Source: Oscillospiraceae bacterium (lineage in GTDB: Bacteria > Bacillota > Clostridia > Oscillospirales > Oscillospiraceae). From it: a DNA stretch of 19,534 nt. The notes beneath the pieces were generated by a model. It was not told the DNA's origin. It searched no databases and was given only the letters and a program-made list of their open reading frames with translations. Position numbers and translations under genes: made by a program. Numbering within the stretch: the stretch's first letter is position 1; every line of letters starts with the position of its first letter. Below, piece by piece: positions 143-14,629 of this stretch. The stretch covers positions 1 through 19,534 of the forward strand of contig JAFZQQ010000331.1 of the NCBI GenBank assembly GCA_017620315.1. The letters are read 5' to 3'.

Positions 143-2083
143 TTATTCCAGCTCAAACGCTCCGGTGTAGAGCTGGTAGTAGGTGCCCTTTTCTTCAATC
201 AGATGCTCGTGACTGCCGCGCTCAATGATCTTTCCGTGATCGAGAACCATGATGACGTCGGAGTTCATGACCGTCGAGAGACGGTGGGCGATAACGAAGA
301 CCGTGCGGCCCTCCAGGAGCTTGTCCATGCCGCGCTGGACGATCGCCTCGGTGCGCGTGTCGATTGAGCTGGTCGCCTCGTCGAGGATCATCACGGGCGG
401 ATCAGCGACCGCGGCACGGGCTATGGCGATCAACTGACGCTGACCCTGAGAGAGATTTGCGCCGTTGTTCGTCAGCTCGGTGTCATACCCCTTGGGCAGA
501 CGGGTGATAAAGTCGTCCGCACCGGCAAGCCTTGCCGCCTCACGGCATTCCTCGTCGGTCGCGTCTAACTTGCCGTAGCGGATGTTGTCCATCACCGTGC
601 CGGTAAAGAGGTTTGTCTCCTGCAAAACGAGCCCGAGAGAGCGGCGGAGATCAGATTTCCTTATCTTGTTGATGTTTATACCGTCGTAGCGGATCTTGCC
701 GTCCTCAATGTCATAAAACCGGTTTATGAGATTGGTGATGGTCGTCTTGCCCGCGCCGGTCGCGCCGACAAAGGCAACCTTTTGTCCGGGCTCGGCGAAG
801 ACGTTGACGTCGGTGAGTACCTGCTTGCCTTCGACATACGAGAAATCGACGTCCACAAGCCTTACGTCGCCCTTGAGCTCGGTGTAGGTGAGCGTGCCGT
901 CGCCATGGGGATGCTTCCAGGCCCAGTGACCGGTGTGATGCTCCGCTTCGGTGACCGTGCCGTCAGGTTCGATCTCGGCATTAACCAGAGTAACATAGCC
1001 GTTGTCGGTCTCGGGCGCTTCGTCCATCAGAGCGAAGACGCGCTGCGCGCCGGCGATGCCCATCACGACTGCGTTCACCTGCTGTGTGAGCTGATTGAGG
1101 TTGCCGGTGAACTGCTTGGTCATATTCAGAAATGCGACAAGAATGGAAATGTCGAGCGCCATGCCGGAAACGGACGGATTCGGAAGCCCCGCGAGAAGAT
1201 ATGCGCCGCCGAGCACGGCGATGAGAACGTAGAGAATGTTGCCGATGTTCATGATAACGGGGCCGAGCGAGTTGGCATAGGCGTGCGCACGGCGCGCGTT
1301 TTCACAAAGCTCTTCGTTAAGCTTATCAAAGTCGTCGGCTGCGGCCTTTTCGTGATTGAAGACCTTGACGACCTTCTGACCCGCCATCATCTCCTGAATA
1401 AAGCCCTCCGTTGCCGCGACAGACTTCTGCTGCGCAACAAAGAATTTGGCGCTGCCGCCGCCGAGCTTGCCGGACACGAGCATCATCGCGGCGACGCCGA
1501 GGAGTATCATCCCCGTAAGAGGCAGGCTGTACCACAGCATGATGAAGAAAGCCACCAGGACGATAGCGCCGGAGCGCAGCACTGCGGGGATTGACTGTGA
1601 AACCAACTCGCGCAGTGTGTCGACGTCGTTGGTGTAGTGGCTCATGATGTCGCCATGCTTGTGCGAATCAAAGTAGCGGATGGGGAGGTCCTGCATCCGG
1701 TCAAAAAGACGACGGCGCAGCTTATCGAGAAAGCCCTGCGTCAAAACAGCTCCAAGCTGCGTTTGCAGAACGACCGCGATGAGCGAGAGACAGTACAGTA
1801 CGATCAGCGGTGTGATCTGCCTGACGACAAGCACCTTGGCAGCCGCCCAGTCGCCGCTTGCGGTCCACTCGCGGATAATGGCAATGATCTTTTGCGTGAA
1901 AATGGTCGGAATGGCGGATACCGCCGAGGAAAAGAGCGTCAGCAGGCACACGGCGGGGAAGAGGCGAGGATAGAATTCAGTCACCAGACGCAGCGTGCGC
2001 CGGAGCGCGGAAGCGTCGAGCTTGGGACGGCCGCGCTTGCTGAATTCTGTATCCGCGCTGTAACGGGGATTAGCTCGCGGCAT
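143..2083 (-). CDS. Heterodimeric ABC multidrug exporter subunit, catalytically canonical half (BmrD/LmrD/TM288-like)
   Basis: A 646-residue half-transporter: N-terminal six-helix exporter transmembrane domain followed by an ATPase domain. Visible motifs are Walker A GATGAGKTT (K446), the Q-loop in VLQETNLF, signature LSQGQ, Walker B with the catalytic glutamate present (MILDEATSS, E569), and the switch histidine in VIAHR (H600). The signature is non-canonical (LSQGQ in place of LSGGQ), and this defect complements those of the partner gene, as in known asymmetric heterodimers. An extra segment containing HTGHWAWKHPHGDG sits between membrane domain and ATPase, which I recall from Firmicute members of this family. 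The start at 2083 is chosen because GGGAGGTG lies a few bases upstream; the in-frame ATG at 2113 lacks a comparable site. The start overlaps the stop of the partner gene by 14 bases, so translation is probably coupled. The exported substrate cannot be read from sequence; lipophilic drugs are typical of the family. Confidence 0.93.
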   Translation of the reverse strand: MPRANPRYSADTEFSKRGRPKLDASALRRTLRLVTEFYPRLFPAVCLLTLFSSAVSAIPTIFTQKIIAIIREWTASGDWAAAKVLVVRQITPLIVLYCLSLIAVVLQTQLGAVLTQGFLDKLRRRLFDRMQDLPIRYFDSHKHGDIMSHYTNDVDTLRELVSQSIPAVLRSGAIVLVAFFIMLWYSLPLTGMILLGVAAMMLVSGKLGGGSAKFFVAQQKSVAATEGFIQEMMAGQKVVKVFNHEKAAADDFDKLNEELCENARRAHAYANSLGPVIMNIGNILYVLIAVLGGAYLLAGLPNPSVSGMALDISILVAFLNMTKQFTGNLNQLTQQVNAVVMGIAGAQRVFALMDEAPETDNGYVTLVNAEIEPDGTVTEAEHHTGHWAWKHPHGDGTLTYTELKGDVRLVDVDFSYVEGKQVLTDVNVFAEPGQKVAFVGATGAGKTTITNLINRFYDIEDGKIRYDGININKIRKSDLRRSLGLVLQETNLFTGTVMDNIRYGKLDATDEECREAARLAGADDFITRLPKGYDTELTNNGANLSQGQRQLIAIARAAVADPPVMILDEATSSIDTRTEAIVQRGMDKLLEGRTVFVIAHRLSTVMNSDVIMVLDHGKIIERGSHEHLIEEKGTYYQLYTGAFELE

Positions 2084-3821
2084 TCGCTTCACCTCCCTTC
2101 GTTTGCTGCTCATAGGTTTCGCGATAAATGCTGCTCGACGTCATCAGCTCGTCATGTGTGCCGGAGGCGGCGATGTGCCCGCCGTCCATCACAAGAATGA
2201 GATCGGCGTCCTTGACCGAAGCGACGCGCTGGGCGATTATGAGCTTGGTCGTTTCGGGAATGTAGCTGCGGAAACCCTCGCGTATCAGCGCGTCGGTGCG
2301 GGTATCGACCGCGCTGGTCGAATCGTCCAGAATAAGTATTTTCGGCTTTTTGAGCAGCGCGCGTGCAATGCACAACCGCTGCTTTTGTCCACCGGAGACG
2401 TTTGTGCCGCCCTGTTCGATGAGTGAATCGTAACCCTTGGGGAAGAGCTTTATAAACTCGTCCGCCTGCGCGAGTTTGCAGGCGGCGGCAAGCTCGTCGC
2501 CGGTCGCGTCCGGGTTGCCCCAGCGGAGGTTATCGGCAATCGTACCTGAGAACAGCTCGTTTTTCTGGAGAACCATGGCTACGGCGTCGCGCAGAGTTTT
2601 GAGGTCATAGTTACGCACATCGACGCCGCCGACGCGAACGGTGCCCTCCGTCGCGTCATAAAGACGCGGAATGAGCTGCACAAGCGTCGATTTGCCGACG
2701 CCGGTGCCGCCGAGGATACCGACGGTCATGCCGGAGCGGATGTGCAGGTCAACGTCGCTGAGCGCGTATTTTTCCGCCGCAGCTGAGTATTTGAAGCTGA
2801 CGTTTTCAAAGTCGATCGAGCCGTCTTTTACTTCAGCCACGGCATTTGTCTCGGGACTGCTGAGCACGGGAACCTCGTCAAGCACCTCACAAATACGTTT
2901 CGCGCTCTCCGCTGACATCGTGAGCATAACGTAGATCATCGAGAGCATCATCAAAGACATGAGGATCTGCATACCGTAGGTGATCATTGCGCTGATCTGT
3001 CCTACGTCAATGAGCGTGCCGTGCGAGGTGATGACCAGCTTTGAGCCGACAAGCAGCACAAACACCATATTGGCGTAGATACAGGTCTGCATAAGCGGCA
3101 TATTGCAGGCTACGATACGCTCGGCACGGGTAAAGTCGTCGCGAATGTCGGTGGATGCCCTGGCAAATTTGCTCTTTTCGTATTCCTCGCGCGAAAAGCC
3201 CTTTACCACGCGCATTGCACGCACGTTTTCTTCCACCGATTCATTCAGCCGGTCATATTTCTTGAACACCGCACGAAACGCAGGCATTGCATTTTTTGCA
3301 ATCAGCGCAAAACCAAATGCCAGTACGGGAATAATGACCACAAGGCTGGTCGCGAGAGCTCCGCCCATGACGTAGGCCATTATGATTGAGAAGATGAGCA
3401 TAAGCGGTGAGCGCACAGCGATGCGGATGAGCATCATGAACGCCATCTGCACATTGTTGACGTCTGTGGTCATGCGCGTGACGAGCGACGAGGAAGAGAA
3501 GTGGTCGATGTTCTCAAACGAGAATCCCTGCACGCGGTGGAACAGGTCGTGCCGAACGTTTTTGGCGAAGCCGGACGCCGCACGCGCAGAAGTAAAGCCG
3601 GCCAGACCGCCGCAAGCGAGCGACGAGATCGCAAGAGCCACCAGTACAGCGCCGAGACGCAGCACAGCGCTCATTTCGATGCCGGCCTTTATCTCGTTGA
3701 CGAGGCGAGCCGTCAGGAACGGTATGATCGCCTCAATGACAGCCTCGCCGATTATGAACAGCAACGTCAGAAGGGCGGGCCTTTTGTATTCGCGAACGCA
3801 CGCGGAGAGCTTTCTCAGCAT
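2070..3821 (-). CDS. Heterodimeric ABC multidrug exporter subunit, degenerate-site half (BmrC/LmrC/TM287-like)
   Basis: A 583-residue half-transporter with an exporter transmembrane domain (about residues 1-310) and an ATPase domain. Walker A is GGTGVGKST (K377) and the signature is an intact SGGQ (VSGGQKQR). Two catalytic positions are degenerate: Walker B reads ILDDSTSAVD, so D500 replaces the catalytic glutamate, and the switch histidine is a glutamine (IIAQR, Q531). This is the pattern known from TM287/288-, BmrCD- and LmrCD-type exporters, where one ATP site holds nucleotide and the other hydrolyses it. The two genes should therefore form an obligate heterodimer. The start at 3821 is chosen because AAAGGAGG lies about seven bases upstream; in-frame ATGs at 3839 and 3845 sit before or within that site. 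A promoter lies at 3869-3897. The stop overlaps the start of the next gene. Confidence 0.93.
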   Translation of the reverse strand: MLRKLSACVREYKRPALLTLLFIIGEAVIEAIIPFLTARLVNEIKAGIEMSAVLRLGAVLVALAISSLACGGLAGFTSARAASGFAKNVRHDLFHRVQGFSFENIDHFSSSSLVTRMTTDVNNVQMAFMMLIRIAVRSPLMLIFSIIMAYVMGGALATSLVVIIPVLAFGFALIAKNAMPAFRAVFKKYDRLNESVEENVRAMRVVKGFSREEYEKSKFARASTDIRDDFTRAERIVACNMPLMQTCIYANMVFVLLVGSKLVITSHGTLIDVGQISAMITYGMQILMSLMMLSMIYVMLTMSAESAKRICEVLDEVPVLSSPETNAVAEVKDGSIDFENVSFKYSAAAEKYALSDVDLHIRSGMTVGILGGTGVGKSTLVQLIPRLYDATEGTVRVGGVDVRNYDLKTLRDAVAMVLQKNELFSGTIADNLRWGNPDATGDELAAACKLAQADEFIKLFPKGYDSLIEQGGTNVSGGQKQRLCIARALLKKPKILILDDSTSAVDTRTDALIREGFRSYIPETTKLIIAQRVASVKDADLILVMDGGHIAASGTHDELMTSSSIYRETYEQQTKGGEANAAS

Positions 3822-3868
3822 ACGCCGCCTCCTTTCCATCGGCAATTATTGTAACAGCACAATATAGT

Positions 3869-3946: not shown

Positions 3947-6556
3947 CTATTCCTTTACAGATGCTATTTCTCCCAGCTTTAGGTTGCTTCTGCTCCGAGC
4001 GTTGAACTGCTCAACCAGCGAAGCTATCTCAACGCTTGCGGTCTCGACCTCAGCATGGAACGCTACGGCGGAAATGCGCGCGGCACCGTGCCCGAGGATG
4101 ATGAGCTGTTCAAGATTGTCGCTGGTCGCGACGCGGATGCGGCGCTCGCGCCGAAGCTCGTAGGTTGCCCGCTCGATGTAGGAGTCGGCAGTTTGCGCCT
4201 CTTTGGTATATACGACCTTAATGCCGTTCACGGTCTCGACCGAGCCGCGATTGCCCTTGACCTTATAGGCGTCGAACACAAGGATCGTTACGCAGCCGCG
4301 GAAGGCACGGAAGTTTGAGAGTATGTCAACAAGCGCAGAGCGCGCGGCGGCGATATCGAGCTGCGCAAGCCTTTTCAGCTCGTCCCAGGCAAAAATGATG
4401 TTATAGCCGTCGACAAGCAGGTATTCCGTGCCGCCGACTGACAGCTCAACATTGTATTTGCGCTCATCGAGCGAGGTTCGTGCGGGCGGCTTAGCCGGTT
4501 CAAAAGCTTTGCGTTCCACCTTGCCGTAGGTGCGCTCAAAAATCGCCTGAAGCTCGGCGTCGTCGCCGTGTTCGCGCGTGCTTTTCTGTACGGCCGCCGA
4601 ATCAGCATCCGCTTTCCGGGAGTCGAGGCGGATCGAGCTCGTGAGGTGCATTTTCGCGCCGGCCTCGTTCCAAGGTATCGTCACGCTTCCGCCATGCTCG
4701 CAGAATACCGAGGAGGATGGATTGTCGACGTCTCTTTCAGGGTCATAGCCCGTTTGCGCCGCCGTTTTTACAGAGTCTGCACAGGGCTCGTAGCCATGCA
4801 CTGTGCAGCTTATCCGTCCGAGCCCCTTGGTGTAAACCGCAAGCTCATTTGCATAACCGCGCAGCGCCGAGACCGGAGCGTGTCCCGTCAGGATCGTCAG
4901 CTCGCCGGAGGTCCCCGACACGTCGACCGTGCCGCTCATGCCTTGAATGTCGTTCATGGCATGACCGACGCAGCTGCCGGGAAGCTCGATGCAAAAGTCG
5001 TAGTACGGCTCGAGAAGAATGCTTTCCGCCTGCATGAGCCCCTGACGTATCGCGCGGCAGGTCGCCTGACGGAAGTCTCCGCCCTCCGTATGCTTCAGAT
5101 GTGCGCGTCCTGCAACAAGCGTGATCCTGACGTCGGTGAGGGGAGAGCCGGTCAGTACGCCAGGATGCTCGCGCTCAAAAATGTGCGTGAAAATGAGCCT
5201 CTGCCAGTTGAGCGCCAGATAATCCGTTGAAACCGCGGATGCGGCGCTTATCCCGCTGCCGCGCGGCGCCGGTTCGATGAGAAGCTGCACCTCGGCATAA
5301 TGACGAAGCGGTTCAAAGTGCCCCATGCCGATTACGGGCGTCGCTATGGTCTCGCGGTAGACTATGCTGCCTTCGTCAAAGCCGACTTTATAACCGAAGC
5401 GGTCAAGGATAAGACGCTGAAGGATCTCAAGCTGTATCTGCCCCATAAGCCGGAGACGCAGCTCTTTTGAATGCTCGTCCCAAACGAGCTGCAGCGAAGG
5501 GTCCTCGTCCTCAAGCTCGCGTAGCCGCGGAAGAGCAGAATGTGCGTCCACTCCCTCCGGCAGTATCATTCTGTATGACAGCACAGGCTCCAACGCAGGC
5601 TGAGCAGTTTCTGCGGCGGCGCCGAGAGACTGGCCGGGGCGTGTATGGGTAAGTCCCGTTACCGCGGCAACAGTTCCGGCGTGAAGCTCGTCTGCGGGGC
5701 GAAACTTTTCACCGGAATAAAGACGGAGTTGATCCGCCTTCTCGCTGAAGGCCTCGCCGTTTACCGTGTACGAAAGCGGCGTTTTGGCCCGAAGCGTGCC
5801 GCCTGTGACGCGCAGCCAAGTAAGCCTTGTGCCCTGCGCGTCACGGCTGATTTTGAATACCCTCGCGCCGAACTCGCCGCCATCTTCTGCGGATGGAGCG
5901 AATCGTGCCAACGCGTCAAGGAATTCTTCCACGCCTTCGAGACGCAGTGCGGAGCCGAAAAAGACAGGGCAGAGCTTCCGCTCCCGAATAAGAGCTCGGA
6001 GCGTGTCGTCGTCAAGCGCGCCGGAGCCGAGATAGCGTTCAAGCGCAGCCTCGTCGCACATCGCGGCGTTTTCGTCACGCTTTTCGGAGAGAAAATCCAC
6101 ACAGCCGGGAAGCGAAGCTGAGAGCGAGGAAAGGATTGCGTCTCTGTCTGATCCGGGCAGGTCGAGTTTGTTCACAAAAATAAACGCGGGCAGGGAATAG
6201 CGTTCCAAAAGGCGGATGAGCGTCCGCGTGTGGCTTTGCACGCCGTCGGTTCCGCTGATGACAAGAATCGCACAGTCAAGGACCGACAATGCACGCTCCA
6301 TCTCGGCGGAAAAGTCGACATGTCCTGGAGTGTCGAGCAATGTAAAGTTAACATCCTTTGCGGAAAACAGAGCGGTTTTTCCGAATATCGTAATTCCGCG
6401 TTCCTTCTCAAGGATGTCGGTATCAAGAAACGCGTCGCCGTGGTCGACGCGCCCAATTGTGCGCCGGGCGCCTGAGGTGTAGAGCAGAGCCTCCGAAAGC
6501 GTGGTCTTTCCCGCGTCGACATGCGCAAGGATACCGACCACAGTGTTTTTGCCCAT
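3947..6556 (-). CDS. TetM/EF-G-like translational GTPase fused to a C-terminal Rae1/YacP-type NYN endoribonuclease
   Basis: 869 residues, against about 640 for TetM/TetO. The GTPase domain is intact: AHVDAGKTT (residues 11-19), RGITI (53-57), DTPGHVD (75-81), NKLD (129-132) and GSA. EF-G domains II-V follow to roughly residue 620, then a linker containing NPSSSVFCEHGG. From residue 712 the chain matches Bacillus Rae1 (YacP), as I recall that sequence: LLVDGYNII, VFDAY, VVYTKE, TADSYIE and ATSDNLEQ. The acidic nuclease residues D716, D762, D791 and D813 are present. Known biology: TetM-type proteins bind the ribosomal A site, and Rae1 cuts mRNA there during translation; I infer a GTPase-delivered, ribosome-dependent nuclease. 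In domain IV the TetM loop SPVSTPADFR corresponds to LKHTEGGDFR (L487-H489), so the tip proline tied to tetracycline release is absent and true tetracycline resistance is doubtful. The start is the ATG at 6556, seven bases after GGAGG; the GTG at 6562 is too close to that site. Confidence 0.92.
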   Translation of the reverse strand: MGKNTVVGILAHVDAGKTTLSEALLYTSGARRTIGRVDHGDAFLDTDILEKERGITIFGKTALFSAKDVNFTLLDTPGHVDFSAEMERALSVLDCAILVISGTDGVQSHTRTLIRLLERYSLPAFIFVNKLDLPGSDRDAILSSLSASLPGCVDFLSEKRDENAAMCDEAALERYLGSGALDDDTLRALIRERKLCPVFFGSALRLEGVEEFLDALARFAPSAEDGGEFGARVFKISRDAQGTRLTWLRVTGGTLRAKTPLSYTVNGEAFSEKADQLRLYSGEKFRPADELHAGTVAAVTGLTHTRPGQSLGAAAETAQPALEPVLSYRMILPEGVDAHSALPRLRELEDEDPSLQLVWDEHSKELRLRLMGQIQLEILQRLILDRFGYKVGFDEGSIVYRETIATPVIGMGHFEPLRHYAEVQLLIEPAPRGSGISAASAVSTDYLALNWQRLIFTHIFEREHPGVLTGSPLTDVRITLVAGRAHLKHTEGGDFRQATCRAIRQGLMQAESILLEPYYDFCIELPGSCVGHAMNDIQGMSGTVDVSGTSGELTILTGHAPVSALRGYANELAVYTKGLGRISCTVHGYEPCADSVKTAAQTGYDPERDVDNPSSSVFCEHGGSVTIPWNEAGAKMHLTSSIRLDSRKADADSAAVQKSTREHGDDAELQAIFERTYGKVERKAFEPAKPPARTSLDERKYNVELSVGGTEYLLVDGYNIIFAWDELKRLAQLDIAAARSALVDILSNFRAFRGCVTILVFDAYKVKGNRGSVETVNGIKVVYTKEAQTADSYIERATYELRRERRIRVATSDNLEQLIILGHGAARISAVAFHAEVETASVEIASLVEQFNARSRSNLKLGEIASVKE

Positions 6557-6619
6557 CTTCACACCTCCGAGACCGAATGGCAGTTATTTGCCGCTTCGTA
6601 TGCGGCGTCAGCAAAAAGA

Positions 6620-6648
6620 ATTATAAAATAAGAGCCGCCGCATTTCAA
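6620..6648 (-). promoter_or_regulatory. Sigma-A-type promoter of the GTPase-nuclease gene
   Basis: On the minus strand TTGAAA (6643-6648) and a perfect TATAAT (6620-6625) are separated by 17 bases. The transcript would start near 6613, giving a leader of about 57 bases. The leader contains a small hairpin (GCCGC/GCGGC pairing 6590-6594 with 6602-6606) ahead of the GGAGG site. The -35 faces away from the tRNA promoter, whose -35 begins only 12 bases further right. Confidence 0.75.
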
Positions 6649-6708: not shown

Positions 6709-6791
6709 GCGGGTATGGCGGAATTGGCAGACGCGCCGGATTTAGGTTCCGGTGGGCGACCGTGCAGGTTCAAATCCTGTTACCCGCACCA
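6709..6791 (+). tRNA. tRNA-Leu, anticodon UAG, CCA encoded
   Basis: The acceptor arms GCGGGTA (6709-6715) and TACCCGC (6781-6787) pair fully and are followed by A and an encoded CCA end (6788-6791 reads ACCA). The anticodon stem CCGGA/TCCGG (6736-6740 with 6748-6752) encloses a seven-base loop TTTAGGT with anticodon TAG at 6743-6745, which decodes CUN leucine codons. A longer variable arm (6753-6763), as expected for class II tRNA-Leu, precedes a T arm with loop TTCAAAT closed by GCAGG/CCTGT. Confidence 0.97.
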
Positions 6792-6882: not shown

Positions 6883-6941
6883 TAATACAGCAAATCTGTG
6901 TGAACGCGGTTCAAGACAAATCATGCAAAGGAGATTTGAAC

Positions 6942-8792
6942 ATGAAAAAAGCATTTTCCCTGTTTCTGGCGCTGGTATTGATCTTTGCGCTGGCGGGCTC
7001 GGCTTTCGCGTCGGGCAGCACCGAGGCGGTTCCCCTTGAATACGACGACGCGTTCGACTTTTCCGATGGAATGGCTGTTGTGATGAAGGACGGCAAATAT
7101 GGCTTCATCGACCTGACCGGCAAGGAGGTAGTGCCCTGCAAGTACGACTATGCCTGGAGCTTTACCTGCGGCTTTGCGAGGGTCAGCGTGGGCGGCGGTG
7201 CGCCTACGGAGGACAGCGAGTTCGGAGGCGGAAAGCTGGGCTATATCGACAAGACCGGCAAGGAGATTACGGCAATCATTTACGACAAAGCGTATGAGTT
7301 CGACGAGGAAGGTTATGCGCCTGTCGTGAGAAAGGACGCCGGAGTCGGATTTATCGACAGAACCGGCGCTGAGGTCGTGCCATGCCGGTACGAGTCCGTC
7401 GGCAGATTCTATGAAGAAGGCCTTGCGGCGGTGAAGCTGGACGGCAAGTGCGGCTTTGTCAACACGAGCGGCGAGTTGGTCGTGCCTTGCATTTACAATG
7501 CGGAGAAAGCCTTTAACGAAGGCGTTGCGAGGGTGCAACTTGACGAAAAGTGGGGCTTTATCGACGTGACCGGCGCCGAGATCGCACCCTGCAAGTTTGA
7601 AAACGCGCACAGCTTTTACGAAGGCGTTGCCAGAGTACAGCTCGACGGCAAGTGGGGGTATATCGACAAGACCGGCAAGGAGGTCATACCGTTCCTGTAT
7701 GAGAGCGCGACCAACTTTACAAACGGCGTTGCGAGAGTCAAGCTGGACGGCAAATACGGCCTGTACGACAAGACCTGCAAGCAGATCCTGCCCTGTAAAT
7801 ACGATAATCTCAACAGCTTCAAAAACGGATACTCCGCAGTGTGCCTGAATGGAAAATGGGGTTTCATCGACATGACCGGCAAGGAGATCGTGCCCTGCAC
7901 CTATGAGTCCGTCGGCGATTTCAAGGAAGGCTTTGCAGCGGTGAAGCTGGACGGCAAGTGGGGCTATATCGACGCGACCGGCAAGGAAGTCGTGCCCTGC
8001 AAGTACGACGGGACCTATCAGTTTGCCGAGGGTATGGCCAGAGTCGATCTGAACGGTAAGAGCGGCTTTGTCGACGCGACCGGCAAGGAGATCGTGCCTT
8101 GCAAGTATGATTATGCATGGGACTTCTCCGGCGGCGTCGCTGATGTGAACATCGGCGGAGAGACCGACGAGGACGGCTTTGTTGTCGGCGGGACATACGG
8201 CTTTGTCGACAAGACCGGCAAGGAGGTCATCCCCTGCAAGTATGAGGGAAGCAGCGGCATGCAGGATGGCTTTGTCGTACTGCTTTTGGACGGGAAGTAC
8301 GGCGTTCTCGACGCAACCGGCAAGGAGGTCGTTCCGTTTGAGTATGACGATGTTGGATTGTTCTGCGAGGGCATGGCAATCGTCATGAAGAATGGCAAGT
8401 ACGGCTATATCAAGCTTGTCGATGATGCGGGAATCACGAACAGCATTTCAGTCACGGTTGGCGGAAAGGCTGTCGAGTGGCCGGACGCCGTGCCGTTCAT
8501 CGACGAGAACAACCGCACAATGGTGCCGCTTCGCGCAGTTGCCGACGCGCTTGGCTTAAAAGTCGAATGGGACAAGGTGAAGCGCGAGGCATCCTTCACT
8601 GACGGGACGAAGACGATCTATTTCCCGATAGACAGCGCCGAAGCACATACGTCCGACGGCACCGTGATCAAGATGGATACGTCTGCGATCATTGTGGACG
8701 GCAGGACCTTTGCGCCGATCCGCTACCTCGCGGAGTTCTTCGGACATACCGTCGGCTGGGACAAGCTGACGCGCACGGTCATAATTGAATAA
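6942..8792 (+). CDS. Secreted WG-repeat protein with C-terminal copper-amine-oxidase-like stalk domain
   Basis: 616 residues. A classic signal peptide (MKK, hydrophobic core, AFA cleavage site after residue 23) is followed by about 12 full WG repeats and one partial, each near 35 residues and built around K-x-G-[FY]-[IV]-D-x-T-G-K-E-[IV]-V-P-C-K-Y. One spacer is longer and carries a charged glycine-rich insertion (repeat 10 to 11, GGETDEDGF); a similar insertion occurs between repeats 1 and 2. The last 115 or so residues match the copper-amine-oxidase N-terminal-like domain of clostridial exoproteins (NNRTMVPLRAVADALG, DGRTFAPIRYLAEFFG); that domain is not an enzyme by itself. A structural or binding role at the cell surface is inferred; no ligand can be named. 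The start at 6942 is set by AAAGGAGA seven bases upstream and by the signal peptide beginning there. It stands alone between its own promoter and terminator. Confidence 0.9.
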   Translation: MKKAFSLFLALVLIFALAGSAFASGSTEAVPLEYDDAFDFSDGMAVVMKDGKYGFIDLTGKEVVPCKYDYAWSFTCGFARVSVGGGAPTEDSEFGGGKLGYIDKTGKEITAIIYDKAYEFDEEGYAPVVRKDAGVGFIDRTGAEVVPCRYESVGRFYEEGLAAVKLDGKCGFVNTSGELVVPCIYNAEKAFNEGVARVQLDEKWGFIDVTGAEIAPCKFENAHSFYEGVARVQLDGKWGYIDKTGKEVIPFLYESATNFTNGVARVKLDGKYGLYDKTCKQILPCKYDNLNSFKNGYSAVCLNGKWGFIDMTGKEIVPCTYESVGDFKEGFAAVKLDGKWGYIDATGKEVVPCKYDGTYQFAEGMARVDLNGKSGFVDATGKEIVPCKYDYAWDFSGGVADVNIGGETDEDGFVVGGTYGFVDKTGKEVIPCKYEGSSGMQDGFVVLLLDGKYGVLDATGKEVVPFEYDDVGLFCEGMAIVMKNGKYGYIKLVDDAGITNSISVTVGGKAVEWPDAVPFIDENNRTMVPLRAVADALGLKVEWDKVKREASFTDGTKTIYFPIDSAEAHTSDGTVIKMDTSAIIVDGRTFAPIRYLAEFFGHTVGWDKLTRTVIIE

Positions 8793-8984: not shown

Positions 8985-9015
8985 AGATAATGAATGATTG
9001 TCAGGAGCGAATGCC

Positions 9016-12000
9016 ATGAAGAAATGGATGTTTGAACTGAATTTGGGCAATATTCTGCTGATCTTGTTCTGCGCAGGAATCAATCTTCTCGGCGGGTGGA
9101 TCGCAGAAAGATTTTTTCTTCCAATATGGCTGGATTCGGTGGGCACCTTTATCTCCGCCGTTATGCTCGGACCTGTCGCGGGGGCGCTCTCCGGCGGGCT
9201 GATGAATGTGGTCGCCGATTTTTTTGCCCCGGGCGAGATATGGTATGCAATCGTCAGCATCGGCGGCGGCATTGCGGTCGGGCTTTCCTTTCCGCGAGGT
9301 CGGAAGGTCGAGCCCTTTTCCGTGATTGCCACCGCTCTTTTGGCGGGAATTGTTATGACGGTCATTTCCACGCCGCTCAATATGTATTTTAACGGCGGCT
9401 ATATCGGCCATCCGTGGGGAGACGCGCTTGTGGATATGCTCTCGCAGTATATCCATGTGAAAGGCGTATGCTGCCTTGCGGGCGGGCTTTTTGTCAATAT
9501 GCCCGACAAGGCGCTGAGCATTGTCATAGCAATGAGTATTCTGTATTTCGTGCAAAAAAGGAAAACTGCCAGAGACAGGGAAAAAGAGACAAGCGGCGAC
9601 AAGCAGGCTAAGTTGTCTGCGATCCTGCTTCTCACCGGAGCTTCGCTGGCGCTTCTGTCTGTTCCCGCCCGCGCGGCCGACTTTAGCTCGGAATACTCGG
9701 CGTATGTCTATGGGAGAGACAGCGGGCTTTCCGTCATAGAGATCAACGCTATTATGCAGTCCTCGGACGGGTACATTTGGGCGGGGGCTTATTCCGGCTT
9801 GTACAGATTCAACGGCTCGTCCTTTGAGCGGATCTATATTGACGAGAAGGTCAACAATGCTATCTGCCTGATTGAGGACGGCAAGAGCAGAATGTGGATA
9901 GGCACCAACGACAGCGGTACGGTCTGTTATGACCCTAAAACGGGAGAGGTGACGGTTTTCTCCTTGACCGAGGGGCTGACCTCCGGCTCCGTGCGCGCGC
10001 TTTGCGACGACGGAAGGGGAAATATTTACGCAGGTACGGCGGCGGAGCTGTGCAGGATAAACGCCGACGGAACGGTCACCGTATTTAAGGGCGTTCCGGA
10101 GCTTTTCGGAGTTTATTCGATGACGTGCCTCGGAAACGGACGGATCGCGGGCGTGAACTCCTCCGGGACGCTTTTTGTCCTGGACGACGGAAAGGTTGTT
10201 TACTCCGGGGAACATGAAGGAACCGAGATAAGCTATACCGCTGTCTGCTGCGGCGGGGATTCCGAACTGATCGTCGGCACATCGGACAATGAGCTTGCCA
10301 GATTCTCCGCCCGAAAGGACGGAACGCTGCGACATGTCGTTACAATCTGCATCCCAGAGCTTAACGACATCAACAGGATACTGTACGATACAAAGGAGTG
10401 CGGCTATTTTCTCGCTGCCTCCAGAGGTATTGCTTTTCTTGACCACAACCTCAAAACGACGATACTGACCCGCGACGATTTCGGCTACTCTGTATCTGAC
10501 GTGATACGCGATTATCAGGGAAATATCTGGTTTTCGTCGAGCAAGCAGGGCATTATGAAGCTTTCTTATAACCCGTTTATGGATGTTTTCTGCAAGGCAG
10601 GATTGGAAAGCACTGTGGTCAACGCCGTTTTGAACGACGAAAACAAGCTGTACATCGGCACTGACGAGGGAATGATCCTCCTTGACCTGGTGACGTGGAA
10701 GACGATAAACAACACCGCGACGGATTTCCTTGAGAACGAGCGCGTTCGCCATCTGATGAAGGACTCCAAGGGCAACATCTGGGTAAGCACCTACGGAAAG
10801 AACGGGCTTGTCCGCATCTCGCCCGACGGGAGCATAAAGGCGTTCGACAACAGCGACCGGGCGGTGCTCGGCAGCAGATTCCGCTTTGCCGTTGAGTTGA
10901 GCGACGGAACGATACTGGCAGCGTCGACGGAGGGACTGAATTTTCTCAGCGATGGAAAGGTCGTCAAGACAATGGGCGCTCAGGACGGGCTGAGACTGCC
11001 GAGGATACTCTGCGCTCTCGAGTGCGGCAACGGCTCGATACTTGTCGGTTCGGACGGCGACGGAGTGTACGTTATTCGCAACATGAAGGTCATCGGTCAC
11101 ATCGGCACGGAACATGGTCTTCAATCGCTGGTGGTGCTTCGCATAGCGCAGTGCGGGCGCGGATACTTATATGTGACGAGCAACGGCCTGTATTATCAGG
11201 GCCCGGATACTGCAAATGAAGCGGCAAGAAGGCTGAAAGCCTTCCCATATCCAAACAACTACGACGCCTATTTCTCCGACGACGGCATGGTGTGGATCAG
11301 CTCAAGCGCAGGAGTATACATTGTCGATGCAAAGAAGCTTGCCGGCGACAAGGAGTATAGCTGCGTATTACTGGATCATCACCGCGGCTTTGACACAACG
11401 CTCACGGCAAACGCCTGGAACTGTGTGCAGGGTGACGAGCTGTACCTCTGCTGCTCCGACGGAGTAAGGAAAATAAATACAAAGACATATGACGGATTGG
11501 ACAACAACTACAACATCGTTATGTCCTCGCTGATGGTTGAGGACAAGCCTGTAGAACTTGTTGACGGCGTTTACCAGTTGCCATCCGGACAGGGCAGGCT
11601 GCAACTTCACCCCTCGGTGCTGAATTACGCATTGTCCAACCCACTGATCCATATCCATCTTTGCGGTATGGACGACCGCGGCATCACGATGCATCAGAAC
11701 GAGATGACCTCCGATTATTATACCACGCTCTCTTACGGCGACTACAATGTGAGCGTTCAGGTGCTTGACGAGTTTACGGGCGAGGTGCTGAAAGAGGCTG
11801 ACTTTGCACTGCACAAGGAGGCCGAGCTGTACGAGTTGACTTATTTCCGCATTTATTTGCTTACGGTCTGCGCGCTGCTGGTCGCGTTCCTCGCGTGGAT
11901 GATCGCAAAGATGAGTAATATGGCGATAATCCATCGCCAGTACGACCAGATCAAGGAGGCAAAGGAGGAGGCCGAGCTCGCAAACAAGGCTAAATCGCGC

Positions 12001-13824
12001 TTCCTTGCCAACATGTCCCATGAGATACGCACGCCGATAAATGCCGTGCTTGGCATGGATGAAATGATAATGCGCGAGAGCAGCGAAAAGGAAATAAGAG
12101 AATACGCAGCGGATATCTATACGGCTGGCAATACGCTGCTTTCGCTTATAAACGACATTCTGGACTCCTCGAAAATCGAATCCGGAAAGATGGAGATCGT
12201 CCCGGTGGAGTACGAGCTTGCGTGGCTTGTGAAGGATCTTGGGAACATGATCTCGCAGCGCGCGCACAAAAAAGACCTCAAACTTGAGATATCCGTCGAC
12301 GAAACGCTGCCGACGGCGGTCTTCGGCGATGACGTCCGCGTGAGGCAGGTCATCACAAATATACTTACAAACGCCGTCAAGTATACCCCTTCGGGCACAG
12401 TTTGGTTCCGCGTAGGCGGTGTGAGGGAGGATAACGACGTTATCCTGCACGTCGAGGTCGAGGACACGGGTATCGGCATCAAGGAGGAGGATCTGCCGAA
12501 GCTCTTTGAGGCATACGAACGTATTGAGGAGAGCCGGAACCGCAATATAGAAGGCACAGGCCTCGGCCTGAACATAACGATACAGCTTCTTGCGATGATG
12601 GGCAGTAAGCTGGAGGTCGAGAGCGTCTATGGCAAAGGCTCGAAGTTTTTCTTCGATCTGCGGCAGGGAATAGTAGACCCGACGCCGATAGGAAACTACG
12701 CAGAGAGCCTGAAGGCAGATGTGAAACGGTATCACCACGAGGGAGCGTTCATAGCACCGGACGCCAGAGTGCTGGTCGTTGACGACAACGATATGAACCG
12801 CAAGGTGTTCAAAAGTCTTCTCAAGGTGACGCAAGTGCAGATCAGCGAAGCGTCAAGCGGAATGGAAGCGCTTGAGCTTGCTGCGAACGAGCACTTCGAC
12901 ATGGTGTTCATGGATCACATGATGCCGGAGATGGACGGCGTTGAGGCGATGCACCGTATGCGTGAAATAGAAGACTATGACAAGATACCTATACTGGCGC
13001 TGACCGCAAACGCGGTGACGGGAGCAAGAGAGAGCTATATTGAGGAGGGGTTTGACGGGTTCCTCCCAAAGCCCATCGTATCGGACAAACTGGAGCATTC
13101 GCTGTGGGAGTTTCTGCCACAGGAGATGCTCAAGCCGTTTGAGCACCGCGAGGGCGACGCAGAAACGGCAGCCGCGGCTGCCGTGCCGGAGGATCTTCCC
13201 TCCGTGGACGGGCTGGACTGGAACTACGCATGGATGCATCTTCCGGAAAGAGAGCTGCTTGAAACAACGATCCGCGAGTTTCGCGACGTCATACCGTTGC
13301 AGGCGGATAAGCTTGACAGGATGTGGAGGAAGATAGAGGACTCCGGTGGGGACGACGCCATGAGCGCCTATCGCATCCAGGTGCATGGCATGAAGAGCGC
13401 CGCGGCAACAATAGGCATAGTTCCGCTTGCGGGCATGGCAAAGATGCTGGAGTTTGCCGCGAGGGACAGCGACCGCGGGAAGATAACAAGGCTTCACGAC
13501 GTCTTTATTTCCGAATGGCGTTCTTACTCGGAAAAGCTCAAGGGCATTTTTGGTAATGACGAAGCGGAGAACGGTGAGGGCAGGGAACCGGCGGACTTGG
13601 ATATGCTTCTTGCAATGTTTTCAATGCTCAGAGCCTCGCTGGAGGACTTTGACATAGACACTGCCGACGAAACAATGAAAAAGCTTCGCTCTTACAGCTA
13701 TCCTCCGGAGGCGGAGCAGCTTATCCCGCTGCTCGCGGCTGCTGTGGCCGATATTGACGAGGAGGCTGCGAACGAGGCGATGGAAAAAATGGAAGAAGCG
13801 ATGAAGTCCGGTTTGCCGGCTTGA
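9016..13824 (+). CDS. Hybrid two-component sensor kinase: ECF S-component-like membrane domain, propeller sensor, kinase, receiver, HPt
   Basis: 1602 residues. Residues 1-185 form a multi-helix membrane domain resembling ECF transporter S components (LDSVGTFISAVMLGPVAGAL is characteristic). After a basic, charged cytoplasmic linker comes a hydrophobic helix (199-217) ending VPARAADF, which looks like a former signal peptide. Residues about 220-855 carry two-component propeller repeats (GYIWAGAYSGLYRF, MWIGT, GNIWFSS, GNIWVSTYGKNGL, MVWISSSAGVY). A Y_Y_Y-like domain (about 860-935) and a membrane helix (944-964) follow. The cytoplasmic part has HisKA with H1002 (MSHEIRTP), HATPase with N1119, D1150 (DTGIG) and GTGLGL (1180-1185), a receiver with D1300 (FMDHMMPEMDG) and an HPt domain with H1457 (HGMKSAA). 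All phosphotransfer residues are present. Unlike Bacteroides sensors of this type it has no AraC output, so phosphate must leave through the HPt. The start at 9016 is set by AGGAG eight bases upstream. The next gene follows after 28 bases. Confidence 0.92.
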   Translation: MKKWMFELNLGNILLILFCAGINLLGGWIAERFFLPIWLDSVGTFISAVMLGPVAGALSGGLMNVVADFFAPGEIWYAIVSIGGGIAVGLSFPRGRKVEPFSVIATALLAGIVMTVISTPLNMYFNGGYIGHPWGDALVDMLSQYIHVKGVCCLAGGLFVNMPDKALSIVIAMSILYFVQKRKTARDREKETSGDKQAKLSAILLLTGASLALLSVPARAADFSSEYSAYVYGRDSGLSVIEINAIMQSSDGYIWAGAYSGLYRFNGSSFERIYIDEKVNNAICLIEDGKSRMWIGTNDSGTVCYDPKTGEVTVFSLTEGLTSGSVRALCDDGRGNIYAGTAAELCRINADGTVTVFKGVPELFGVYSMTCLGNGRIAGVNSSGTLFVLDDGKVVYSGEHEGTEISYTAVCCGGDSELIVGTSDNELARFSARKDGTLRHVVTICIPELNDINRILYDTKECGYFLAASRGIAFLDHNLKTTILTRDDFGYSVSDVIRDYQGNIWFSSSKQGIMKLSYNPFMDVFCKAGLESTVVNAVLNDENKLYIGTDEGMILLDLVTWKTINNTATDFLENERVRHLMKDSKGNIWVSTYGKNGLVRISPDGSIKAFDNSDRAVLGSRFRFAVELSDGTILAASTEGLNFLSDGKVVKTMGAQDGLRLPRILCALECGNGSILVGSDGDGVYVIRNMKVIGHIGTEHGLQSLVVLRIAQCGRGYLYVTSNGLYYQGPDTANEAARRLKAFPYPNNYDAYFSDDGMVWISSSAGVYIVDAKKLAGDKEYSCVLLDHHRGFDTTLTANAWNCVQGDELYLCCSDGVRKINTKTYDGLDNNYNIVMSSLMVEDKPVELVDGVYQLPSGQGRLQLHPSVLNYALSNPLIHIHLCGMDDRGITMHQNEMTSDYYTTLSYGDYNVSVQVLDEFTGEVLKEADFALHKEAELYELTYFRIYLLTVCALLVAFLAWMIAKMSNMAIIHRQYDQIKEAKEEAELANKAKSRFLANMSHEIRTPINAVLGMDEMIMRESSEKEIREYAADIYTAGNTLLSLINDILDSSKIESGKMEIVPVEYELAWLVKDLGNMISQRAHKKDLKLEISVDETLPTAVFGDDVRVRQVITNILTNAVKYTPSGTVWFRVGGVREDNDVILHVEVEDTGIGIKEEDLPKLFEAYERIEESRNRNIEGTGLGLNITIQLLAMMGSKLEVESVYGKGSKFFFDLRQGIVDPTPIGNYAESLKADVKRYHHEGAFIAPDARVLVVDDNDMNRKVFKSLLKVTQVQISEASSGMEALELAANEHFDMVFMDHMMPEMDGVEAMHRMREIEDYDKIPILALTANAVTGARESYIEEGFDGFLPKPIVSDKLEHSLWEFLPQEMLKPFEHREGDAETAAAAAVPEDLPSVDGLDWNYAWMHLPERELLETTIREFRDVIPLQADKLDRMWRKIEDSGGDDAMSAYRIQVHGMKSAAATIGIVPLAGMAKMLEFAARDSDRGKITRLHDVFISEWRSYSEKLKGIFGNDEAENGEGREPADLDMLLAMFSMLRASLEDFDIDTADETMKKLRSYSYPPEAEQLIPLLAAAVADIDEEAANEAMEKMEEAMKSGLPA

Positions 13825-13852: not shown

Positions 13853-14629
13853 ATGATGAAAAAAATCGTCCTGATCGGAAAGATGAACGAGCATCTAAAG
13901 AACACATACGAGTACCTTCGCAAATATTTCTATGTGCAGCTCTGCGCAGAGGGAGCGCAAAAAGCACTCGGCATGGTCAAGGTCATAGAGCCCGACATCA
14001 TCGTGATCAGCCTTGAAGGCTTTTCAAGCTTGGAGCAGGTGATCTTTGCGGGACTTCAGAAGGACTGCTTTAGGATCCCTGTGATCACCTTTGGAACCTC
14101 TATCGAAAAGCAGTTGTTTCGCATTTACTACAATGACGGACAGTTTGAAAACTATGAAGGCGTAATTGACCCTGCAGCGGCATTTTCGGCTGTGTGCAAA
14201 AAGCTTGGGCTAAACCCGGATGCTGCCGTATCTGTGGTTCCGCCTGACGACAACAGAAAAAAGGTGCTTGTCGTCGACGACAATGCCTCAACGCTGCGCA
14301 GCATAAAGAGCATGCTTGAAGAAAAATACAACGTCACACTTGCAAATTCCGGAATGAAGGCGATGACCTCCATAGGCAAAAACCGGCCCGACGTTATTTT
14401 GCTGGACTATGAGATGCCGGTTTGCGACGGCAGACAGACGCTTGAAATGATCCGCGCCGACGAGGACTTGAGCAGTATTCCGGTGATCTTCCTCACAAGC
14501 GTCAACGACAAAGAGCACATCCATGCGGTGATAAAGCTGCTTCCTGCAGGTTATCTTCTCAAACCCGCCGTGCCTGAGAGACTGATAGAAACAATAGAAA
14601 AGGCGCTAGAGGGGAAGTCCTGCGTCTGA
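13853..14629 (+). CDS. Response regulator with degenerate and intact receiver domains, no output domain
   Basis: 258 residues. The C-terminal half (about 136-255) is a complete receiver: acidic pair D142-D143 (VLVVDDN), phospho-acceptor D185 (VILLDYEMPVCDG), the conserved serine in IFLTS and the lysine in LLKPA. The N-terminal half (about 3-115) follows the same alternating fold pattern (IVLIGK, DIIVISLEGF, IPVITFG) but has no aspartate where the acceptor should be, so I read it as a pseudo-receiver. No DNA-binding, cyclic-di-GMP or enzymatic output domain is present. Sitting 28 bases behind the hybrid kinase, it is the obvious acceptor or sink for the HPt domain; onward signalling would have to be by protein contact. 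GGGAAGG eight bases upstream sets the start. The stop overlaps the next start by one base (TGATG). Confidence 0.88.
   Translation: MMKKIVLIGKMNEHLKNTYEYLRKYFYVQLCAEGAQKALGMVKVIEPDIIVISLEGFSSLEQVIFAGLQKDCFRIPVITFGTSIEKQLFRIYYNDGQFENYEGVIDPAAAFSAVCKKLGLNPDAAVSVVPPDDNRKKVLVVDDNASTLRSIKSMLEEKYNVTLANSGMKAMTSIGKNRPDVILLDYEMPVCDGRQTLEMIRADEDLSSIPVIFLTSVNDKEHIHAVIKLLPAGYLLKPAVPERLIETIEKALEGKSCV

Follow-up and report, generated by a model that had tools for sequence, protein, structure and literature searches.

What is the function of a protein in which a translational GTPase resembling the tetracycline resistance proteins carries a Rae1/YacP-type NYN nuclease on the same chain? The question is raised by a gene of the window, i.e., the whole stretch of DNA analysed here (19,534 nucleotides). 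This gene lies at 3947-6556 on the minus strand, starts with ATG seven bases downstream of a GGAGG (6564-6568), and encodes 869 amino acids. A preliminary description of this DNA had proposed that GTPase and nuclease share one chain and that the P-loop and the RGITI, DTPGHVD and NKLD motifs are intact; the open reading frame, the Pfam domains found in both halves and the location of all four motifs in the protein bear this out. The features of the gene are the following.

3947-6556, minus strand: fused gene for a translational GTPase with a Rae1/YacP-type NYN nuclease (869 amino acids; coordinates include the stop codon)
5894-6541, minus strand: G domain (GTP_EFTU), residues 6-221, with P-loop, RGITI, DTPGHVD and NKLD (Pfam)
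5384-5872, minus strand: EF-G domains II and III, residues 229-391 (Pfam; EF-G_D2 slightly under cut-off)
5027-5368, minus strand: EF-G domain IV (EFG_IV), residues 397-510 (Pfam)
5069-5101, minus strand: tip loop of domain IV, HLKHTEGGDFR, residues 486-496 (alignment)
4766-5017, minus strand: EF-G domain V (EFG_C), residues 514-597 (Pfam)
4637-4765, minus strand: C-terminal extension of the GTPase, residues 598-640, with SVFCxHG and similar (alignment, structure model)
4433-4624, minus strand: predicted disordered linker, residues 645-708 (pLDDT mostly below 50)
3983-4426, minus strand: NYN_YacP/Rae1-type nuclease domain, residues 711-858 (Pfam, sequence match, structure model)
4409-4411, minus strand: codon of D716, presumed active-site aspartate (conservation)
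4271-4273, minus strand: codon of D762, presumed active-site aspartate (conservation)
4184-4186, minus strand: codon of D791, presumed active-site aspartate (conservation)
4118-4120, minus strand: codon of D813, presumed active-site aspartate (conservation)
3950-3982, minus strand: C-terminal end, residues 859-869; lacks the LEKxR tail motif found in stand-alone Rae1 (motif search)
6620-6648, minus strand: promoter-like site TTGAAA-17-TATAAT, 11/12, upstream of the fused gene (consensus match only)

Along the protein, the Pfam families follow in the order GTP_EFTU (E = 1.2e-48), EF-G_D2 (0.7 bits under the Pfam cut-off), EFG_III, EFG_IV, EFG_C and NYN_YacP. This domain order and the G motifs, with a P-loop that reads AHVDAGKTT, are those of the EF-G-type translational GTPase superfamily. 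The AlphaFold model (mean pLDDT 81.1, pTM 0.62, 41 sequences in the alignment) has folded GTPase domains followed by an extension that is folded as far as residue ~640; the NYN domain is folded too, and the linker before it (~645-708) is modelled with low confidence. As a whole, the model matches EF-G structures in the PDB (Foldseek).

Directly downstream of the fused gene, on the same strand, lies an MsbA-type ABC exporter pair (window 143-3845, minus strand); one or both exporter genes follow the fused gene in eight of ten loci of the same genus, but not outside it. Rae1 of Bacillus subtilis likewise has a site of action close to an ABC exporter operon. We did not use an operon link between the fused gene and the exporters as functional evidence because it is absent outside the genus. 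A tRNA-Leu gene (6709-6791, plus strand) is divergent from the fused gene. Elsewhere, the window encodes a protein that combines a copper amine oxidase N-terminal domain with 13 stretches of WG repeat (6900-8792, plus strand), a hybrid histidine kinase of 1608 amino acids that has a receiver domain and two-component propeller repeats and whose N-terminus weakly matches ECF transporters (8998-13821, plus strand) and, after the kinase gene, a receiver-domain protein (13853-14629).

The NYN_YacP match covers residues 713-858 (1.5e-47, 162.1 bits against a Pfam cut-off of 24.6). The sequence of the domain matches that of the B. subtilis Rae1 structure at 1.1e-22, with 37-38% identity over the fold, and this is the closest match of known structure. 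Structure prediction had been named beforehand as the check for an NYN/PIN fold, and it supported a Rae1 fold: the separately modelled NYN part matches the B. subtilis Rae1 crystal structures 5mq9 and 5mq8 in Foldseek, with an E-value of 1.7e-12 and TM scores of 0.74/0.79 for 5mq9_A. The aspartates were placed correctly at 716, 762, 791 and 813 in the preliminary description, and each is invariant in 42/42 fused and 36/36 stand-alone homologues, as well as in 79/79 further fused proteins from named records (80 loci, 79 of them with a readable open reading frame). Fold and aspartates are thus common to the fused protein and to B. subtilis Rae1/YacP; the latter stands alone and ends in a C-terminal EKWRR tail, whereas the former is joined to a GTPase and lacks the tail. 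In the accessible text of the publications on the B. subtilis protein, Rae1 is termed a ribosomal A-site endoribonuclease (PMC6613710), and the destabilisation of mRNAs by Rae1 is translation-dependent (PMC10100781, PMC6613710).

The fusion is real, occurs widely and has been reported before: a 2015 paper described ten clostridial species whose Tet proteins had acquired a YacP-like NYN domain, filed these proteins as Tet and suggested an antibiotic resistance involving RNase activity (accessible text of PMC4342817). The ten-species proteins have the same architecture as the protein studied here and probably belong to the same family. Our literature searches, which mostly did not cover subscription papers, turned up no further description of the fusion among the hits listed, nor did we find an experiment on any fused member. 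Neither the distinct GTPase family nor the replacement of Rae1, the missing tail or the wider count, all given below, is reported in the accessible part of PMC4342817. What is new here is the comparative evidence that the fusion is the Rae1 of these bacteria, and that its carrier GTPase does not belong with the Tet resistance proteins by score, tree and tip loop.

A count of genomes with this architecture, which the preliminary description had proposed, confirmed that the fusion is widespread. In a class sample of 393 genomes (the class taken as Clostridia from named relatives), NYN_YacP was found in 250 and had no match in 143. By open-frame length, 129 of the 250 (G000 included) have the fused form (frames of at least 700 aa; alignment confirmed the GTPase part in each of the 42 fused proteins that were read) and 112 the stand-alone form (at most 230 aa); nine, several at contig ends, fall in neither class (G083, G194, G210, G223, G228, G273, G299, G324 and G333). 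Frames with NYN_YacP were searched individually in 99 class-sample genomes and in five genomes with multiple matches. The phylum sample comprised 149 genomes, of which at least four were also in the class sample; the domain was found in 85 (84 over the cut-off), and the open frame is long in 11 and, with 308 aa, falls between the classes in G469. PF05991 is present in 120/120 homologues listed, out of at least 7994 scored, so the fusion is not a product of chance. Named carriers include Agathobacter rectalis, Monoglobus pectinilyticus, Ruminococcus flavefaciens, Intestinimonas butyriciproducens and Anaerovorax odorimutans. Two plasmid-labelled records, NZ_OY725736.1 (M. pectinilyticus) and NZ_CP143948.1 (A. 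rectalis), match 96-98% of the fused protein, and plasmids are a possible route of its spread. Two fused genes look interrupted, with GTPase and NYN in separate frames (L312 in G228 and L313 in G083), which may be true decay or assembly error.

Fused and stand-alone forms hardly ever share a genome. In the class sample, G322 alone has both forms intact, where ~37 such genomes would be expected under independence with kinship ignored, a statistic that is inflated by the relatedness among the sampled genomes. Second NYN matches in G158, G212 and G246 are under the family cut-off, and no genome of the phylum sample has two NYN_YacP matches (85 with the domain, of 149).

The genetic organisation around rae1 points in the same direction. 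In B. subtilis, rae1 is co-transcribed with yacO, which encodes an RlmB homologue (accessible text of PMC6613710). Among 18 stand-alone loci, 17 have sigH directly after rae1 and 15 have rlmB one or three open reading frames upstream; the fused gene of the window has other neighbours than this usual clostridial place of the stand-alone gene. In 12 of the 30 fusion genomes searched (the window's own included) rlmB and sigH adjoin, the other 18 being uninformative because the two genes are apart or were not found together. None of the 12 informative genomes has an intact rae1 between rlmB and sigH: 11 lack any NYN match in the slot and one, G408, has a decayed piece. This remnant lies at 2421-2594 of L137, and the extra NYN matches there correspond to it. 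In G322, which is separate from the 30, the slot holds an intact rae1 and the fusion is on another contig. G090, which shares its genus code with two fusion genomes, G158 and G291, has a filled slot and no fusion. The states of the slot look like a series of gain, coexistence, decay and loss, if the order suggested by comparing the loci is right, and the fusion seems to have replaced stand-alone Rae1.

The fused and stand-alone proteins also differ at the C-terminus. Stand-alone Rae1 ends in LEKxRR or similar, which we captured as L[EDQ][KREND]xR within the last 22 residues, a trait of the stand-alone proteins defined here rather than a published criterion. The motif is present in 35/36 stand-alone and in 0/42 fused proteins, and the window's protein lacks it. 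Nine of the 79 further fused proteins match it, and about three of them (L229, L254, L255) seem by eye to have a true degenerate tail. A stricter motif with a second basic residue is found in 34/36 stand-alone, 0/42 fused and 3/79 further fused proteins (L201, L242, L245). The profile of stand-alone Rae1 reaches its own end in 36/36 stand-alone, 16/42 fused and 15/79 further fused proteins; in part of the fused proteins the tail region is therefore there, in altered form. In B. subtilis Rae1, the tail is the EKWRR at 162-166, and within it falls R166P, one of the suppressors attributed to lost yacO or rae1 function (accessible text of PMC6613710). Most fused copies have lost the tail motif, and the GTPase may have taken over docking.

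In the NYN tree, the 42 fused rows group together; two stand-alone rows, from G247 and G263, fall within this group or next to it. The position of these two rows suggested a fission of the fusion in both genomes (three changes). We set fission aside, since a single clade of fused NYN domains is compatible with the data (p-AU 0.21), the two proteins keep the tail and the GTPases of these genomes are outside the fused clade. The stand-alone NYN proteins of G247 and G263 may instead be relatives of the ancestor of the fusion.

In the GTPase tree, a single clade (SH-aLRT 100) unites all 38 fused GTPases included. It belongs to a family that has unfused members of ~650 aa as well; neither the EF-G rows nor the clade that contains the Tet(M)-like rows falls within this family. 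The tree left out four rows of the window's genus, all but eight EF-G rows and two repeat fused genes, and its rows called tet were grouped by score, L170 alone among them having been checked against NCBIfam. Alignment A1 used 41 of the 42 fused proteins (L066 was dropped), and the GTPase model A2 was built with 12 of the 42. Elongation factor G shares with the fused protein the domain order, the GTPase motifs and the structural matches in the PDB, but forms a separate deep branch. The tips of domain IV differ as well: HLKHTEGGDFR in the fused protein, SPVSTPADFR in the Tet(M)-like rows, HEVDSSEMAF and similar in the EF-G rows. The form HxKHTxGGDFR is exact in 76/79 further fused proteins. Judged from sequence, the fused GTPase is thus a separate Tet-like family with its own domain IV tip. 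Unfused relatives occur in records of Ligilactobacillus salivarius and Paenibacillus cellulosilyticus. The unfused GTPases L163 (G216) and L280 (G326) are sister to the fused clade. Seven unfused members could be aligned, and they have the tip loop and the C-terminal extension in common with the fused proteins, so both traits seem to predate the fusion.

Taken with the apparent replacement of stand-alone Rae1, which strengthens the idea of a GTP-driven nuclease acting on mRNA in the A site, these observations lead us to regard the fused protein, with some confidence, as Rae1 in a new carrier: the GTPase would dock on the ribosome and deliver Rae1-type cleavage to the A site. The GTPase, Tet-like but of a separate family, would bind the ribosome where EF-G and TetM bind, with its domain IV reaching the decoding site. 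The linker would let the tethered NYN domain reach and cut what is presumably mRNA, in or beside the A site and probably on stalled ribosomes, and GTP hydrolysis could then release the factor. Ribosome rescue, mRNA quality control and self-limitation, the roles proposed in the preliminary description, would be candidate purposes of such cutting. The fusion would have arisen once, spread through Clostridia and made stand-alone rae1 dispensable. A more specific version is attractive, but we put it at somewhat below an even chance. In it, the GTPase part of a single-chain, GTP-driven endonuclease recognises the stalled ribosome, opens or clears its A site, passes the mRNA on to the tethered Rae1 domain and returns to its starting state through GTP hydrolysis. 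The protein would then be the usual Rae1 of these bacteria and would do in one bacterial chain what a rescue GTPase and an A-site nuclease do as a pair in eukaryotes. SmrB of Escherichia coli and Cue2 of yeast are A-site mRNA endonucleases of ribosome quality control with an SMR fold, and we know of no GTPase on the same chain in either. If our reading is right, the fused protein would likewise cut mRNA at or near stalled ribosomes. Against it count the lack of NYN_YacP in 143/393 genomes, which indicates that the function is dispensable, the two genomes that have an unfused GTPase but no NYN match, the lack of a significant co-occurrence of unfused GTPase and stand-alone Rae1, which the reading leads one to expect, the coexistence of both forms in G322 and the incomplete loss of the tail.

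The two halves could also do separate jobs, the GTPase working on the ribosome (removal of a blocking ligand, backup translocation or recycling) while the NYN domain rides along, with GTP uncoupled from cleavage. The genomes of the two sister GTPases, G216 and G326, have no NYN_YacP match, in keeping with a GTPase that works without the nuclease, the tip loop seems older than the fusion, and the predicted linker is long and disordered. An unfused GTPase is also found in 20/87 genomes with stand-alone Rae1, against 2/32, a co-occurrence that is not significant (p 0.059). It is concentrated in family f52, where 14/22 stand-alone-Rae1 genomes have the GTPase, and there is no signal outside it (6/65 against 2/32, p 1.0). 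We rejected this co-occurrence as a functional link: p reaches 0.02 (22/87 against 2/32) only when L294 and L293 are included, of which the former falls on the Tet side of the GTPase tree and the latter is a long basal branch. Separate jobs fit poorly with the 12/12 informative slots, among the 30 fusion genomes, from which intact rae1 is missing, and with the fact that most fused NYN domains have lost the tail motif. The empty slot and the lost tail together suggest that one part depends on the other. We regard uncoupled halves as rather unlikely; this account overlaps with the carrier reading that we prefer.

The suggestion in the accessible text of PMC4342817 that the protein protects ribosomes from tetracycline, with an RNase as an accessory, is much less probable still. 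The idea is not without basis. Some members are named as TetM/TetW/TetO/TetS family, as the preliminary description had believed of its relatives. Tet(M) and Tet(O) are likewise EF-G-like GTPases, and tet_protect is the best-scoring NCBIfam model for the fused protein. However, the score is 409.3 bits for a cut-off of 775, whereas the Tet(M)-like control L170 from the same data scores 853 with tet_protect and 1308. The fused protein further differs from Tet(M) and Tet(O) in its clade, its tip loop and the attached NYN domain, and the unfused family member L167 is only 28-32% identical to TetB(P), Tet(Q), Tet(36) and Tet(M). Because L167 and TetB(P) are 28% identical, we also rejected the idea that TetB(P) belongs to this family of GTPases. 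In an alignment read by eye, LKH at 487-489 does stand opposite the SPV of L170, the replacement from which the preliminary description had argued against plain tetracycline protection. The conclusion stands through the NCBIfam score, the separate clade and the different, conserved tip. The missing SPV is by itself a weak argument, because Tet(M) with all three SPV residues changed to alanine can remain active (accessible text of PMC4750697). On the score, the tree, the tip loop and the identities of L167 we rejected tetracycline resistance as the main function.

Cleavage of rRNA or tRNA rather than mRNA, shutting down or marking ribosomes under stress, is just as improbable: PMC4342817, in its accessible text, cites a proposed role of the domain in rRNA and tRNA maturation and suggests a test of RNase activity on rRNA, but Rae1, to which the domain is 37-38% identical, destabilises mRNAs in a translation-dependent way (PMC10100781, PMC6613710, as far as accessible), and the fused domain keeps the aspartates and seems to stand in for rae1.

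The gene is present in about a third of the class-sample genomes (129/393) and is sometimes named as tetracycline resistance, probably wrongly, and such misnaming would affect resistance surveys of gut metagenomes. If the carrier reading is true, the tail of stand-alone Rae1 is predicted to be its ribosome-docking part, replaceable by a GTPase, and the fusion would be a ready-made handle on the access of Rae1 to the A site of paused ribosomes.
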